NCBI GenBank assembly: GCA_015485995.1
Contig: WFSP01000073.1
Coordinates: forward strand, 1-11,245
DNA: 11,245 nucleotides
DNA from: Caldisericales bacterium
GTDB lineage: Bacteria > Caldisericota > Caldisericia > Caldisericales > Caldisericaceae
Direction of reading: 5' to 3'
Shown here piece by piece: positions 1,373 through 6,739 of this stretch (position 1 is its first letter; each line of letters begins with the position of its first letter). A program made the position numbers and the translations under genes. The notes under the pieces are model-generated. The model saw only the letters and a list, made by a program, of their open reading frames with translations, did no database searches and was not told the origin of the DNA.

Positions 1373-4300
1373 ATGATTCGGAAAGTGATAAAAAGAGACG
1401 GCAGAATAGTTGAGTTTGACAAAAATAAAATCACCACAGCCATTTTTAAAGCAGGAAAAGAAACAGGAGAGTTTGGAGCTGATACGGCAGAATTTCTCAC
1501 TGGAATTATAACAACGGAACTTGAGTTTGAACACGACAGCGTTCCTTTCAGCATAGAAGTAATACAAAACAAAATAGAACGAGTACTTATGCGCAAGGGA
1601 TTTTACGCCACCTCAAAAGCATTTATCCTTTATAGAGAACACAGGAGAGAACTCAGAGAAATAAAAAATCATATTACTCCCGACCTCGTCGAGGACTATC
1701 TAAACCAGGGCACATGGGAAGTCCACGAGAATGCAAATATAAACTACTCCATACAAGGATTAAAAGCATTTATCGCGGGAAAAGCAGAGGAACACTACTG
1801 GCTTGACAGAGTATATCCCAAAAAAATCGCTGACTTACACAAAAACGGTTGGGTGCATATTCATAACCTTTCAATGCTATCCGCCTATTGCTGCGGATGG
1901 GACCTTGAGGATTTAATAAGAAGGGGGTTCGGAGGGCCACCCGGCAAGCCATATTCAAAACCTGCAAAGCATCTTTCCTCTATTTTAGGGCAGATGATGA
2001 ACTTCCTATTCACACTGCAGAATGAAGTAGCCGGAGCAGTTGCTTTCAGCTCGTTTGATACCTACCTTGCCCCGTTTGTTTACTTCGATAAACTGAATTA
2101 CAAAGAAGTAAAACAACAGATACAGGAATTCGTTTACAATATGAACCAAACAATGAGAACAGGAGGGCAAAGCCCGTTTTCCAACATTACCCTTGATATA
2201 CACCCGCATCCGCTGCTTAAAGACCGCCCCGTAATTGTAGGGGGAAAAGAGCACCCCGACGTTCTATACAGGGATATGCAAAAAGAAATGGATATGGTGA
2301 ACAGGGCTTTCTGGGAAACAATGATTGAAGGCGACGGAAACAGCCGGCCTTTTACATTCCCCATCCCCACAATTAACATAGATAAGGATTTTGAGTGGAA
2401 TAATCCTGACCTTGAGCCAATGTGGGAAGCAACAAGAAAATACGGAACACCTTATTTTGCAAACTTTGTAAACTCAGATCTAAGCCCGGAAGATGCCCGC
2501 AGTATGTGCTTGGAAGAAAACGAAGAGGTTATTATTAAAAACCGTGATGGAGTTATAGAAAAACGCAGAATTAGTGGTATAGTAAATGATTACGAGACAG
2601 GTACATTTGATGAAGATGGTTGGGCAAATGCAAAAAATGGTTTACAAGCCCTATCGCTGGATTTTGTTTCTGGGAATGTCGAGTGGGCTAATATAATTAA
2701 CTTTTTGCGAATTAAGAGCAAAGAATTAGTGGAAATAACAACTGATGATGGGAAAATAATCAGGACTTCTTTGAAACATATTGTACCTGTTTTTGGGGTA
2801 AATGGACTTGAAAATAAGTTTGCCGAAGATGTTGAAGAGGGCGATTACCTACTATCCCTAAAAAGTGCAAAACACAGCTTAAGAAATACATATCAACATA
2901 TAGATGATCTTGTCCTTGATGAGGATCTGGCAAAAATTTTAGGTTATTTTGTAGCGAATGGCAATTATTTGTTTGAGAGCAGAAAGGGATATACATATTT
3001 TGGACAGCCCAGAGGTATCCAGTTTATGTTTAACAGTATTACTAAAGAAAATTTGAATGAACTAAGGTATCTTGTAAAAAAGGTATTTAATGTTGAACCT
3101 AAAGAAAAGAAGGATCCGAGGTATAATTCTTATTATCTCTATATTTATAGCACTTCAATAAGCAGGAAACTGTATAATGCTGGGTTCAAGAAATATGGTA
3201 AGTTACCAACTGTATTGTTTAACTCTCCACCTTCTGTGATAGAAGCCTTTTTAGAATATCATTTTAAAGGAGACGGATATAAAAAAAAGCAGGAAATCCA
3301 CATAAATGACCCTGAATTAGCAAAAGATTTGGTAATATTATATAATTTTATTGGAGTTCCGGTAACATATAGGGAGAGTAGTAATAATCAAGTGATCTAT
3401 ATTCAACACAAAAAGTCAGAGACTATGATTGATGGTAGAATGAATAACCCGTTGCTTTTTGAGAGAGTTCCAGGATTTCTTGCAGAGTCTACATATAAAG
3501 TACCTGGTTTAGTTAAAAGCAGGATGGTGGGTGTCAGAACATTAGAAAAGCACGATGCAGAAACAGAAGAATCACGTTTCATAAAGAACAGCGATTTTTA
3601 CTTAGTAAGAGTAAAAAATCTAAAAGTTGTGAAATTAGACAAGCCTAAGTATTTCTACGACTTTGAGCTCGACAAAAATCACCTATTTGTTCACTCAATG
3701 GGCACTATTACTCATAATTGCTGCAGGCTTCGTCTAAACGTAAAAGAACTGCGTAAAAAAGGCGGAGGCTTGTTTGGCGCTGACCCTCTAACTGGTTGTT
3801 ATGATGAGAAAACAGAAATTTTAACAACGGACGGCTGGAAATTTTTTAGAGATTTAACTTTAGATGATGAGGTTTTCACTTTAACCAAAGACAACAAAAT
3901 AGAAGTTCATAAACCAATAAGGCTTTTTGCTTATGATTGGAATGGAAACTTGTATAGATTTAAAGCAAAGTCATTAGATCTGTTGGTTACGCCTAATCAT
4001 AAAATGGTTGTTGACAAAGTAAGAACAGGAAAAAGAGAACTTGTCCCTGCAGAAGAATTTAATGTAAATAATCACAGAATTCCAAAACAGGGTATATGGA
4101 GCGGTAAAAAGGTAAAATATTTTATATTGCCAGCCATAGAAAATAATTGGTTATCCGGAAATCATCAAAGCCATCATCATTATGAGAAAGAAGAGTTAAA
4201 AATCCCAATGGATGATTGGTTAAAATTCTTCGGAATCTGGATTGCCAAGGGAAGCTTTGATAATGATAATATTGCTCAATCCCATGGATATAGAGTTTTC

Positions 4301-5710
4301 ATAACTCAGGTCAATAAGACGACAAAAAAAGAAATCAAGAATGCTTTAGACAATCTCCCATTCCATTACCGAGAAATCGATGAAGGCTTTGTCATTACTA
4401 ACAAACAATTATGGAATTATTTAAAACAATTTGGCCACTGCTATGATAAGTTTATCCCTAAAGAACTTAAAAGGCTATCAAAAGAACAGTTAGAAATATT
4501 ATTTGAATGGTTGATAAAAGGAGACGGCCATATTCGGCCGTTAAGAGGGATAGCTAAAAAGAGACAGATTACTTATTATACGGTTTCTAAAAAATTAGCT
4601 GATGATATTCAGGAGATTGTAATGAAACTTGGTTGGGCAGCAACAATTATTCGGAGAAAGGAAAGAAAAAGTTCTATTAAGGGAAGAGAAATTGATTCAA
4701 AAAAGCAATACATCGTTGGAATTCAACAATCTACTCACTATCGTCTTCGTAAAAATAATATAAGTCTTGAAAATTATCAAGGGAAAGTATATTCTTGCGA
4801 AGTTCCTAATCATACATTATTTGTGAGGAGAAATGGAAAAGTTACTTGGTCAGGAAATTCTATCGGAGTCATAACAATCAATATGCCACGCATTGGTTAT
4901 ATTTCAAAAACAAAGGAAGAATTTTTCGATAAAGTTGCCGAAATAATGGACGCGGCTAAAAACGGGCTCACGGTAAAGAGGAAAACAGTGGAGCAATTTA
5001 CTGAAGGAGGATTATACCCATACTCAAAAGTTTATTTGAACCCTATCAAAGAAAGTGGCGGAAGCTACTGGGGAAACCATTTCTCTACAATCGGCATTGT
5101 GGGGATGAATGAAGCGCTTATGAACTTTATGGGAGAAAATATCGGAACGGAAAAAGGGATTCAATTCACTACGGAACTAATGGAATTTATGCGGAAAAGG
5201 ATGCAAGATTACCAGGAAGAAACTGGCACTTTATTTAATTTGGAGGCAACACCCAGTGAATCCACCGCATATTCGCTTGCGTTAATGGATAAAAAGAAAT
5301 ATCCTGATATTATTGTTGCGAACGAAGAAGAAGTGGAAAAATACGAGGTAGCCCCATTCTACACGAACTCCGCACAGCTTCCCGTAGATTATACCGACGA
5401 CCCGTTTGAGGTAGCGGAAAAACAAAATAACATCCAATCCTTATGGACCGGAGGGACAGTTGTTCACTTCTTTCTGGGCGAATCCCTGCATTCGGGAAAC
5501 GAAGCAAAGTTATTCGTTAAAAGGGTTATTGGAAATTACAAGCTTCCTTATATTACTATCACCCCCACTTTTTCTGTATGCCCAAAACATGGATACATCC
5601 CCGGAGAACATAAATATTGCCCATACTGCGATGCGGAGCTTGTAGAGAGATACGAGCGTGGGGAAAAAGAAGAAAAACCCGGCGGAATAAAATTGGACAT
5701 AGACGTATAA
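1373..5710 (+). CDS. nrdD: Anaerobic ribonucleoside-triphosphate reductase large part, with two inteins
   Basis: Class III ribonucleotide reductase, which reduces ribonucleotides to deoxyribonucleotides in the cytoplasm without oxygen. The precursor is 1445 aa. An ATP-cone regulatory domain fills about residues 1-95, starting IRKVIKRDG. The catalytic barrel follows, with conserved SAYCCGW (Cys173, Cys174). The finger-loop pair CCRLRL (Cys783, Cys784) lies after intein 1, and SIGVITINMPRIGY lies after intein 2. A zinc ribbon at 1403-1419 reads CPKH...CPYC, with His in place of the usual second Cys. Inteins occupy residues 379-782 and 809-1162; without them the protein is 687 aa. The C-terminus stops 26 residues after the ribbon and lacks the glycyl-radical motif (RVxGY...W), which is encoded separately at 6348-6739. 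ATG 1373 is chosen because AGGAGGGTGA (1358-1367) precedes it; an upstream in-frame TTG at 1304 has no such site and gives a poor N-terminus. The stop overlaps the thyX start (TAATG). The activase gene nrdG is not in view. Confidence 0.96.
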   Translation: MIRKVIKRDGRIVEFDKNKITTAIFKAGKETGEFGADTAEFLTGIITTELEFEHDSVPFSIEVIQNKIERVLMRKGFYATSKAFILYREHRRELREIKNHITPDLVEDYLNQGTWEVHENANINYSIQGLKAFIAGKAEEHYWLDRVYPKKIADLHKNGWVHIHNLSMLSAYCCGWDLEDLIRRGFGGPPGKPYSKPAKHLSSILGQMMNFLFTLQNEVAGAVAFSSFDTYLAPFVYFDKLNYKEVKQQIQEFVYNMNQTMRTGGQSPFSNITLDIHPHPLLKDRPVIVGGKEHPDVLYRDMQKEMDMVNRAFWETMIEGDGNSRPFTFPIPTINIDKDFEWNNPDLEPMWEATRKYGTPYFANFVNSDLSPEDARSMCLEENEEVIIKNRDGVIEKRRISGIVNDYETGTFDEDGWANAKNGLQALSLDFVSGNVEWANIINFLRIKSKELVEITTDDGKIIRTSLKHIVPVFGVNGLENKFAEDVEEGDYLLSLKSAKHSLRNTYQHIDDLVLDEDLAKILGYFVANGNYLFESRKGYTYFGQPRGIQFMFNSITKENLNELRYLVKKVFNVEPKEKKDPRYNSYYLYIYSTSISRKLYNAGFKKYGKLPTVLFNSPPSVIEAFLEYHFKGDGYKKKQEIHINDPELAKDLVILYNFIGVPVTYRESSNNQVIYIQHKKSETMIDGRMNNPLLFERVPGFLAESTYKVPGLVKSRMVGVRTLEKHDAETEESRFIKNSDFYLVRVKNLKVVKLDKPKYFYDFELDKNHLFVHSMGTITHNCCRLRLNVKELRKKGGGLFGADPLTGCYDEKTEILTTDGWKFFRDLTLDDEVFTLTKDNKIEVHKPIRLFAYDWNGNLYRFKAKSLDLLVTPNHKMVVDKVRTGKRELVPAEEFNVNNHRIPKQGIWSGKKVKYFILPAIENNWLSGNHQSHHHYEKEELKIPMDDWLKFFGIWIAKGSFDNDNIAQSHGYRVFITQVNKTTKKEIKNALDNLPFHYREIDEGFVITNKQLWNYLKQFGHCYDKFIPKELKRLSKEQLEILFEWLIKGDGHIRPLRGIAKKRQITYYTVSKKLADDIQEIVMKLGWAATIIRRKERKSSIKGREIDSKKQYIVGIQQSTHYRLRKNNISLENYQGKVYSCEVPNHTLFVRRNGKVTWSGNSIGVITINMPRIGYISKTKEEFFDKVAEIMDAAKNGLTVKRKTVEQFTEGGLYPYSKVYLNPIKESGGSYWGNHFSTIGIVGMNEALMNFMGENIGTEKGIQFTTELMEFMRKRMQDYQEETGTLFNLEATPSESTAYSLALMDKKKYPDIIVANEEEVEKYEVAPFYTNSAQLPVDYTDDPFEVAEKQNNIQSLWTGGTVVHFFLGESLHSGNEAKLFVKRVIGNYKLPYITITPTFSVCPKHGYIPGEHKYCPYCDAELVERYERGEKEEKPGGIKLDIDV
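2507..3718 (+). mobile_element. Intein 1 in NrdD (404 aa), LAGLIDADG type
   Basis: In-frame intein, precursor residues 379-782. It starts with Cys379 (CLEENEE) and ends THN, followed by Cys783 as the +1 nucleophile. Removal joins ARSM to CCRLRL, the normal NrdD finger loop. Splicing blocks are visible: block B TSLKH with His469, and the block F / C-terminal part YDFELDKNHLF...ITHN. A LAGLIDADG homing endonuclease is inserted in the middle. Block C reads LGYFVANG (residues 523-530) and block E reads LEYHFKGDG with Asp634. The acidic residue expected in block C is Asn529, so DNA cleavage is probably lost or reduced while the splicing residues look intact. The intein is visibly more AT-rich than the flanking host codons, consistent with acquisition. 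Boundaries are firm because both flanks rejoin a conserved motif. Confidence 0.95.
3797..4858 (+). mobile_element. Intein 2 in NrdD (354 aa), LAGLIDADG type
   Basis: Second in-frame intein, precursor residues 809-1162, only 26 host residues after intein 1. It starts Cys809 (CYDEKTEILTTDGW) and ends WSGN, followed by Ser1163 as the +1 nucleophile. Removal joins GADPLTG to SIGVITINMPRIGY, a conserved NrdD stretch. Block B is TPNH with His876, and block F is VPNHTLFVRRNG. The penultimate residue is Gly1161 where most inteins have His; such variants exist and can still splice. The central endonuclease has block C FFGIWIAKG with Lys959 in the acidic position, and block E FEWLIKGDG with Asp1051. 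The endonuclease is therefore probably impaired. Intein 2 differs from intein 1 in its N- and C-terminal blocks and in its +1 residue, so it looks like a separate acquisition and not a duplicate. Confidence 0.94.
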
Positions 5711-6336
5711 TGGAAAGAGAAAAGACGGCTTCAGTAAAACTTATTACATACACGCCTGAACCTGAAAAAGTTGTTGCAACGGCAATGAGGCAAAGCAGGT
5801 TCAAAGGTGGCGTTGCAACACTTGATATGGAAGAGGATAAAATAAAACACCTCATTGAGCTTGCATTAAAGCTCGGCCATCTGTCTGTTTTCGAGCATAT
5901 TTCTTTTACTTTTGCAATTGAGGGAATTTCACGCGCCTGCTCGCACCAATTCGTAAGGCACAGACTGTTTTCATTTACCCAGCAAAGCCAGAGGTACGTA
6001 AAAGAATCCGATTTTCCGTATATTGTGCCACAAACAATTAAACAGGATAAAGGAGCATATCTAAAATTTATTAACGCAATTAACATAATAAGTGAAACTT
6101 ACAAGGAACTTGCAAAAACTGTGCCATTTGAAGATGCTCGTTTCATACTGCCTAATGCCACGGAAACTAAAATGGTTGCAACTGCCAATGCGCGCGAACT
6201 GATGCATTTCTTTAAGTTGAGGTTGGACCAGGCTGCCCAATGGGAAATTCGTAACGTAGCAGAACTTATGTTTAAAGAAGTTTCAGAAATAGCGCCTATT
6301 ATTTTTTCAAAAGATAATTTAAATGGATTTCAATGA
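5710..6336 (+). CDS. thyX: Flavin-dependent thymidylate synthase
   Basis: A 208-aa ThyX. It methylates dUMP to dTMP using methylene-tetrahydrofolate, NAD(P)H and bound FAD, and acts as a homotetramer in the cytoplasm. The signature RHRxxSxxxxSxR is complete at 83-95 (RHRLFSFTQQSQR). The conserved stretch HFFKLRLDQAAQWEIR near 165-181 supplies the dUMP-binding and active-site arginine region. Length is normal for the family. The start ATG shares its A with the nrdD stop codon (TAATG), and there is no good ribosome binding site, so translation is probably coupled to nrdD. It sits between the two coding parts of the class III reductase, so the operon makes dNTPs and then dTMP. No thyA is in the window. 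Longer in-frame starts upstream would run into the zinc-ribbon codons of nrdD and are unlikely. Confidence 0.97.
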   Translation: MEREKTASVKLITYTPEPEKVVATAMRQSRFKGGVATLDMEEDKIKHLIELALKLGHLSVFEHISFTFAIEGISRACSHQFVRHRLFSFTQQSQRYVKESDFPYIVPQTIKQDKGAYLKFINAINIISETYKELAKTVPFEDARFILPNATETKMVATANARELMHFFKLRLDQAAQWEIRNVAELMFKEVSEIAPIIFSKDNLNGFQ

Positions 6337-6347
6337 GGAGGTGAAAG

Positions 6348-6739
6348 ATGAAGTACAAGGAAGATGAACAGGGAAACCTTATCCTTGAAGACGGAACCGT
6401 GATTCCGAAAGAGAAACGGCAGAAAGCGGAAGTTTACAGCCGCGTCGTTGGGTAAAGCAATGCTCAACTAAAATCCATTCTAATTGACTCGGAACTCCCT
6501 ATGGGACAACGAGGCGGAAGGGCAGAAGCCCGCCGTGAGAGACTGAACGAATGGACACTTGCAGAAGGTGAAGCAACAGTCCGAACTGCATGGTAACATG
6601 CAGAGTGCTAAAGAAATTTAGCACCGCTTCCTCAAAAAGGGAGTCATAAAAGCAACAGATTGATTTAAGGCCCGTTTCACAATGGAACAATGGAAAGAAA
6701 CAGGAATTTAAGAAGAGAAAGACATTCAAAGAAAAATAA
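6348..6739 (+). CDS. nrdD: Stand-alone glycyl-radical domain of NrdD, split by a group I intron (6348-6453 joined to 6663-6739)
   Basis: Two exons, 6348-6453 and 6663-6739, give a 60-aa protein after splicing. It ends in the class III glycyl-radical motif: EVYSRVVG from exon 1 and YLRPVSQWNNGKKQEF from exon 2. Gly35, the last complete codon of exon 1 (GGG), matches the glycine that carries the radical after activation by NrdG. The large NrdD at 1373-5710 lacks exactly this part, so the two proteins presumably assemble into one enzyme. A perfect GAGGAGGTGA (6335-6344), overlapping the thyX stop, sets the ATG start. The first T of the Tyr36 codon plus the first two intron bases make a TAA stop, so unspliced RNA would yield a 35-aa peptide ending at the glycine. 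The first 26 or so residues, charged and beginning MKYKEDEQGN, are not part of the motif and may help docking. A programmed or accidental pseudogene is unlikely given the precise intron. Confidence 0.88.
6454..6662 (+). ncRNA. Group I self-splicing intron, 209 nt, no ORF
   Basis: Helices readable directly are as follows. P1: exon GUUGGGU (6447-6453) with GCUCAAC (6462-6468), ending in the required U-G pair at the 5' splice site. P3: UCCAUUC (6474-6480) with GAAUGGA (6549-6555). P4: CUCG (6488-6491) with CGAG (6510-6513). P5: UCCC/GGGA (6496-6506). P6/P6a: the GC-rich hairpin at 6513-6534. P7: GACUG (6541-6545) with CAGUC (6577-6581), inside R- and S-like cores AGAGACUG and CAGUCC. P8: CACUU/AGGUG (6556-6570). 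P9: a perfect 7-bp hairpin with GUAA loop (6586-6603). P9.1: a perfect 8-bp hairpin with GAAA loop (6605-6624). P9.2: CUUCCU/AGGGAG (6627-6643). The intron ends in G6662, and exon 2 AUU can pair with AAU (6459-6461) as P10. There is no room for P2. Splicing restores the conserved glycyl-radical frame, which fixes both ends. Confidence 0.93.

Follow-up and report, generated by a model that had tools for sequence, protein, structure and literature searches.

Organization of the locus

The window, i.e., the whole 11,245-nucleotide stretch of DNA analysed here, looks like bacterial chromosome and contains CRISPR repeats, a PCC-domain gene, nrdD, thyX, a small gene, a GntP permease gene and a DUF4147/MOFRL gene. 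Five CRISPR repeats are located at 1-299 on the minus strand (Rfam CRISPR-DR2). The closest named locus, L001 of an 'uncultured Caldiserica bacterium', is 78% identical in the C-terminal part of NrdD. The phylum to which L001 belongs, represented by 54 whole genomes, formed the set for the comparisons given below as phylum counts. The features relevant here are:

1373 to 5710, plus strand: nrdD main subunit with ATP cone, NRDD barrel and zinc-ribbon end, without the glycyl-radical tail, containing two inteins
2507 to 3718, within nrdD: intein 1 (404 aa), directly before the CCR motif
3797 to 4858, within nrdD: intein 2 (354 aa), before SIGVITIN, 26 residues after CCR
5710 to 6336, plus strand: thyX, between nrdD and the glycyl-radical gene
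6348 to 6453, plus strand: first exon of the small gene for the glycyl-radical (C-terminal) part of NrdD, encoding MKYK...RVVG and contributing base 1 of the Tyr codon, recognised from uninterrupted homologues
6454 to 6662, plus strand: predicted group I intron of 209 nt without an endonuclease gene, ending in G6662, recognised from its helices and same-site homologues
6663 to 6739, plus strand: exon 2, (Y)LRPVSQWNNGKKQEFKKRKTFKEK followed by a stop; PF13597 545-562 at E 0.0076, below the curated cut-off

The intein-free NrdD of a relative, G017, aligns with Thermotoga maritima NrdD up to residue 616, and this end point falls just before Gly621, which is given as the radical site of the T. maritima enzyme (PMC4493059). 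Matches to the small gene were found in 36 of the 54 phylum genomes, as uninterrupted stand-alone genes (30), interrupted genes (2) or parts of a long NrdD frame (4), and the remaining 18 gave no match. A detached glycyl-radical gene is common in the phylum; the earlier note had regarded this intron site in a cellular gene of 60 aa as unusual, but the gene itself is not, as shown by the 30 uninterrupted cases and by the 328 homologues described below. A class III ribonucleotide reductase (RNR) with a detached tail of ~60 aa is present in 32 of the 54 genomes, the two interrupted ones included. A search of the open literature for a split NrdD tail found nothing. The order nrdD-thyX-small gene is common to the three intron carriers (the window, G016 and G017), and we infer that these genes are co-transcribed.

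The glycyl-radical gene is interrupted one base past the glycine codon

The frame at 6348-6452 encodes MKYKEDEQGNLILEDGTVIPKEKRQKAEVYSRVVG and meets a TAA stop at 6453-6455, composed of the exon base T6453 and the first two intron bases, AA. In G016 and G017 the exon T and the intron start form a TAG in the same way. The frame restarts at 6663 (T/AT TTA AGG CCC) and reads (Y)LRPVSQWNNGKKQEFKKRKTFKEK through 6739. The gap at 6454-6662 is 209 nt long, exactly as the earlier note had read it: a frame running to RVVG, a TAA, and resumption 209 bases later. Exon 1 terminates in ...GTC GTT GGG T (6453) and exon 2 starts with AT TTA AGG (6663), i.e., the insertion is in phase 1, between bases 1 and 2 of the tyrosine codon. 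The intron had been placed directly after the radical-glycine codon; it is indeed adjacent to it, with the exact point lying one base past.

Both splice ends follow from ribozyme rules alone (the U.G pair in P1, the terminal G and a P10 that extends the guide), and with these ends the frame is restored. Removal of the intron would yield a 60-aa protein in frame that contains RVVGYLRPVSQWNNGKKQEF, in agreement with P0001, an uninterrupted homologue. When the spliced 60-aa sequence was used as a query, 328 of 330 candidates, limited to 33-105 aa in length, matched at E <= 0.001. The top match, P0001, showed 92% identity over 98% of the length, with a junction that is ungapped by eye, and P0005 showed 93% over 97%. 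Among the matches listed (120 of the 328) identity reached up to 93%, and the named ones were from Caldisericum exile, Caldiserica, Acetothermia and Bipolaricaulis. The joined exons thus match uninterrupted homologues, in agreement with the claim that precise removal restores a conserved NrdD motif. P0001 has the RVxGY glycyl-radical tail and matches PF13597 (531-562, E 2.8e-10, above the cut-off). Exon 1 alone had no Pfam match, a PDB search with a 60-aa homologue gave no match at E 0.1, and blastn against plasmids gave no match.

Introns at the identical base were found in 2 of the 54 phylum genomes, G016 (215 nt, locus L103) and G017 (870 nt, locus L104). A further copy of the same RNA lies at 2563-2820 of L113 (IMGVR_UViG_3300031952_001124), a viral contig, with P1 recoded to the host gene; neither half of that gene had a Pfam match. 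Exact core patterns gave no matches in viral contigs, and a further pattern search matched only the contig of L113.

Predicted ribozyme structure and its conservation

The helices predicted for the window RNA are given below; in P3, P4, P5, P6/P6a, P7 and P8 the pairing and changes refer to the alignment of four RNAs.

6447-6453 with 6462-6468, plus strand: P1, 5' exon GUUGGGU with guide GCUCAAC, U.G at the 5' splice site
6459-6461 with 6663-6665, plus strand: P10, AAU with 3' exon AUU
6474-6480 with 6549-6555, plus strand: P3, pseudoknotted with P7; all cells paired (100%), both-sided changes in 2 of 7 pairs
6486-6491 with 6510-6515, plus strand: P4, one A.G mismatch; one both-sided change
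6496-6499 with 6503-6506, plus strand: P5, both-sided change present
6516-6517 with 6533-6534, plus strand: P6; and 6520-6523 with 6528-6531: P6a; four both-sided changes in P6/P6a
6541-6545 with 6577-6581, plus strand: P7, GACUG with CAGUC; 100% paired, invariant
6556-6560 with 6566-6570, plus strand: P8, 2 of 5 pairs changed on both sides
within 6541-6581, plus strand: J8/7, AAGCAA
6586-6592 with 6597-6603, plus strand: P9, GUAA loop
6605-6612 with 6617-6624, plus strand: P9.1, GAAA loop
6627-6632 with 6638-6643, plus strand: P9.2

The elements that had been listed for the gap (P1 with U-G, P3 to P9, two GNRA loops and a terminal G) were all present in the sequence, together with P10. The wobble pair is formed by U6453 with G6462 and occurs also in G016, G017 and, in the corrected register, L113; the terminal G is common to all four aligned RNAs. 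All cells of the three P10 pairs are paired (100%), with a both-sided change in one. Helices P7.1/P7.2 between P7 and P3 are a feature of subgroup IA, to which the T4 nrdD intron belongs. Assignment of the window RNA to this T4-type subgroup was rejected, as the spacer from P7 to P3 is only 3 nt (6545 to 6549) and leaves no room for P7.1/P7.2.

The folding energy of 6440-6685 corresponds to z = -4.05, and none of 200 shuffles was as low. In the minimum-energy fold of this segment P9, P9.1 and P9.2 were formed and P1, P3 and P7 were absent; such folds can miss helices in pseudoknotted ribozymes.

For the analysis of covariation we aligned the RNAs of the window, G016, G017 (endonuclease gene removed) and L113, with the structure drawn on the window. 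Pairing is seen in 95.2% of the 252 cells, and among the 63 pairs there are 18 with both-sided changes. Controls with partners slid by 1-3 columns had 36-43% of cells paired and 0-4 both-sided changes, a comparison in which drawing the structure on the window favours the drawn structure; none of 500 shuffles reached the observed values of pairing or covariation. Both-sided changes were seen in P1, P10, P3, P4, P5, P6/P6a, P8, P9, P9.1 and P9.2, and covariation is neutral on P7, which is invariant in the four rows. L113 accounts for 15 of the 18 changes, G017 for two and the window for one; three of the four RNAs are close relatives, and L113 itself was found via its core-like sequence. P1 of L113 is one base out of register in the alignment (85.7% of P1 cells paired), and in register all seven pairs form. 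Taken as a comparison of predicted structures, the four RNAs support the drawn group I fold, including P3 of the P3/P7 pseudoknot.

Detection by covariance models

An Rfam group I covariance search, proposed in the earlier note as a check, returned no match on the window (RF00028, E up to 10, 421 nt). The introns of G016, G017 and L113 were not matched either, in the same search that scores the T4 nrdD intron at 105.3 bits. RF00028 is a detection model and not a defining feature of group I introns. A model built from the four RNAs (R1, the E-values of which are rough) matched the T4 nrdD intron with 31.4 bits and phage T2P with 29.8 bits, where RF00028 gives 80.4 bits. Within the phylum, RF00028 identified nine places in 6 of the 54 genomes, with 2 of the 54 genomes above the cut-off, and by coordinate comparison R1 overlaps six of the nine, missing those in L076, L077 and L082. 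RF00028 matches lie inside 23S rRNA genes at L074, L076, L077 and L079, where the rRNA was confirmed in all four, and ORFs beside such matches resemble LAGLIDADG proteins by eye.

In the phylum to which G055, a bin of Falkowbacteria (Patescibacteria), belongs, R1 also matched 47 of 379 genomes. Of the 59 places listed for Patescibacteria two were tested, and RF00028 matches each of them, one at 32.3 bits (below the gathering score, E 1.8e-6, inside 23S rRNA) and one at 68.6 bits. Since R1 matches introns that are positive with RF00028, a search in the opposite direction links the intron family to recognised group I introns.

Same-site introns, an endonuclease gene and probable homing

The intron of G017 encodes a 249-aa LAGLIDADG protein (PF14528, E 1.2e-8), placed between the strands of P6a. 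Its C-terminus is translated from the ribozyme core (RERLNEW...KQQSEL). Of the 10 best endonuclease homologues, with the query itself (P0121) included, 7 likewise run into this ribozyme core at the C-terminus, as judged by the first of these motifs, which was present in 8 of the 120 homologues listed (of 247); further endonuclease-bearing introns of this kind are probably present in metagenomes. In the intron of the window no endonuclease gene was seen, and an endonuclease search in five Patescibacteria or archaeal genomes, run with no positive control, gave none in any of the five. The predicted ribosome-binding site of the G017 endonuclease gene (GGAAGGAG, L104:1549-1563) coincides with the 5' strand of P6/P6a, and folding of the ribozyme could hide this putative site.

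An in-frame stop followed by a resumed frame fits, superficially, a gap that is bypassed at translation by a ribosome hop or readthrough, with no splicing. The 209-nt insert with covarying group I helices is unlike a bypass element, the insert of G017 extends to 870 nt with a gene of its own, and uninterrupted relatives exist; on these grounds we rejected a bypass, which we consider extremely improbable. The proposal of a group I intron in NrdD is in turn upheld by the exact junction, the both-sided helix changes, the same-site homologues, the LAGLIDADG gene and the link through R1. The segment 6454-6662 is almost certainly a group I intron in the glycyl-radical tail gene of a split class III RNR from a Caldiserica-like bacterium.

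Once transcribed, the ribozyme would fold with its P3-P9 core, guanosine would attack at U6453 and the freed 5' exon would then attack after G6662. This would join ...GTT GGG T to AT TTA AGG... and restore RVVGYLRPV. The splice-site stop would end translation of the unspliced RNA at 35 aa and keep ribosomes off the ribozyme. Stop codons of this sort have been reported at many group I introns and have been viewed as helping the RNA to fold and splice (PMC3984707).

The intron DNA of the window and G016 is 93.3% identical (194/208). The same pair of loci shows 71.3% in thyX (437/613), 76.8% in the N part of nrdD (869/1131) and 67.8% in its C part, where third positions are 39% identical; third-position identity in the nrdD and thyX comparisons is 38-48%. 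For the exons the values are 70.8% of 106 (exon 1) and 83.1% of 77 (exon 2), and for intein 1 83.1% of 1210. All three carriers have the same 23 exon bases flanking the site, and 28 uninterrupted loci match 13-20 of the 23 (L044, in which the motif was not found by pattern, and L072, the interrupted gene of G017, were left out). Such identity among carriers is what an endonuclease target or co-conversion would lead one to expect.

The excess of the intron (93%) over nrdD and thyX (68-77%) suggests homing, and identity above the flanks together with patchy distribution (2 of the 54 genomes) is a trait of mobile introns. Vertical descent under strong RNA constraint would instead explain the three same-site copies by common origin. 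The carriers belong to the same phylum and share their gene order, group I cores are constrained so that high intron identity could in part reflect this constraint, and intein 1 and exon 2 also exceed nrdD and thyX. G016 and G017 are moreover close (91-96% in thyX and nrdD), so that the three carriers amount to two lineages. Against descent stand the gap between the intron and the nrdD/thyX values, third positions included, the 23 exon bases shared by carriers as opposed to uninterrupted loci, and the endonuclease gene of G017. We regard vertical descent as rather unlikely; judging from these identities, the intron most likely spread by horizontal homing into the conserved glycine-tyrosine codons.

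Possible dependence of the reductase on splicing

The nrdD gene has two inteins in the window, one in G016 (the first) and none in G017 or L001. Cysteines C329 and C330 of the CCR motif are reported as essential in T. maritima NrdD (PMC4493059); the CCR match was made by eye, and the HMMER alignment places the motifs a few residues apart. With the intron next to the glycine codon, a single enzyme thus has splicing elements at three of its conserved motifs.

The RNR search covered PF02867, nrdD and the glycyl tail. The large subunit of class I/II RNR (PF02867) was found in none of the four genomes searched, G016 and G017 among them. Both of these draft bins contain a single nrdD, and a second glycyl-radical tail was found in neither; a PF13597 search detected an intact tail in all six other genomes. 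Profile matches to NrdG, the activase, were obtained in 53 of the 54 phylum genomes, in 1 of the 54 above the cut-off. A search of phage sequences for the glycyl tail matched 11 of 50,697 records, all in one piece, with half-exons being below detection.

These searches bear also on whether the element is a group I intron that has decayed and no longer splices, so that the gene is broken and another glycyl tail or RNR serves the cell. The window copy has no endonuclease gene, RF00028 is blind to its RNA, and the search for a replacement was confined to the relatives G016 and G017. The core helices, the U.G pair, the terminal G and P10 are nevertheless all in place, both exons retain their frame and conserved residues, and no replacement was found in the two draft bins. 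We judge decay very unlikely; the intron is predicted to splice. If the lack of a replacement RNR or tail holds, intron-bearing cells would need intron removal to make DNA precursors.

Splicing could conceivably gate the enzyme, with GTP level, temperature or redox state setting the amount of activatable reductase, though we hold this to be improbable. GTP, temperature or redox would then act on RNA and protein splicing, with intein 1 at the essential cysteine motif, intein 2 at a conserved motif and the intron at the radical glycine. The RNR so interrupted would be the sole one detected in G016 and G017, with its glycine on a separate subunit of 60 residues.

Comparison with known systems

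Group I introns in RNR genes are already well known: more than 100 are reported in the RNRdb paper (PMC2795772), and a phage survey gives nrdD as the phage RNR gene most often split, with six cases (PMC3653736). Bacterial hosts named in a review are nrdE, nrdF, recA and flagellin genes (PMC3984707). The intron described here is set apart by its glycine-adjacent site and by a core beyond the reach of Rfam. Our search of the open literature, with subscription papers outside its scope, found no nrdD intron at the glycine and nothing on group I introns of Caldisericota. As Rfam misses the intron even at E 10, a plain gene call yields a 35-aa stub or nothing.

The T4 nrdD (sunY) intron, which had been named as the precedent, likewise belongs to group I and interrupts a class III RNR gene; blastn matches it to window 6566-6603 over 38 bases with 84% identity, at an E of 0.1 that is not significant by itself. 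The precedent holds for the gene and not for the site: the T4 frame stays open for 181 residues and is interrupted ~400 residues before the T4 radical glycine. The endonuclease differs as well, since T4 has the GIY-YIG enzyme I-TevII 3' of the core, in contrast to the LAGLIDADG gene in P6a of G017. The introns in nrdE, nrdF and nrdA of Bacillus, cyanobacteria, Salinibacter and phage Twort are also group I introns in conserved RNR genes (PMC3984707, PMC3653736, PMC3019208), but occur in another RNR class and at other sites, and the accounts of RNR introns in these papers name no bacterial nrdD intron. The 23S rRNA introns of the same phylum and of Patescibacteria are linked to the window through R1 and its overlap with RF00028 places, yet where tested they interrupt rRNA rather than an enzyme gene. 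The viral intron of L113 shares the helix set, J8/7 and the P9 region (R1 198 bits, L113 being in the R1 training set) and differs in its host gene.

For a phylum that has received little study, the window adds a predicted group I intron position in the gene of an anaerobic reductase, a single base away from the codon for the catalytic glycine. A 2014 review saw little evidence for intron homing between bacteria (PMC3984707); the same-site copies, of which some have the endonuclease gene and others lack it, make up a natural series for its study together with the 30 genomes in which the site is empty. The intron and the two inteins in NrdD present a sharp case of mobile elements in the least changeable codons.
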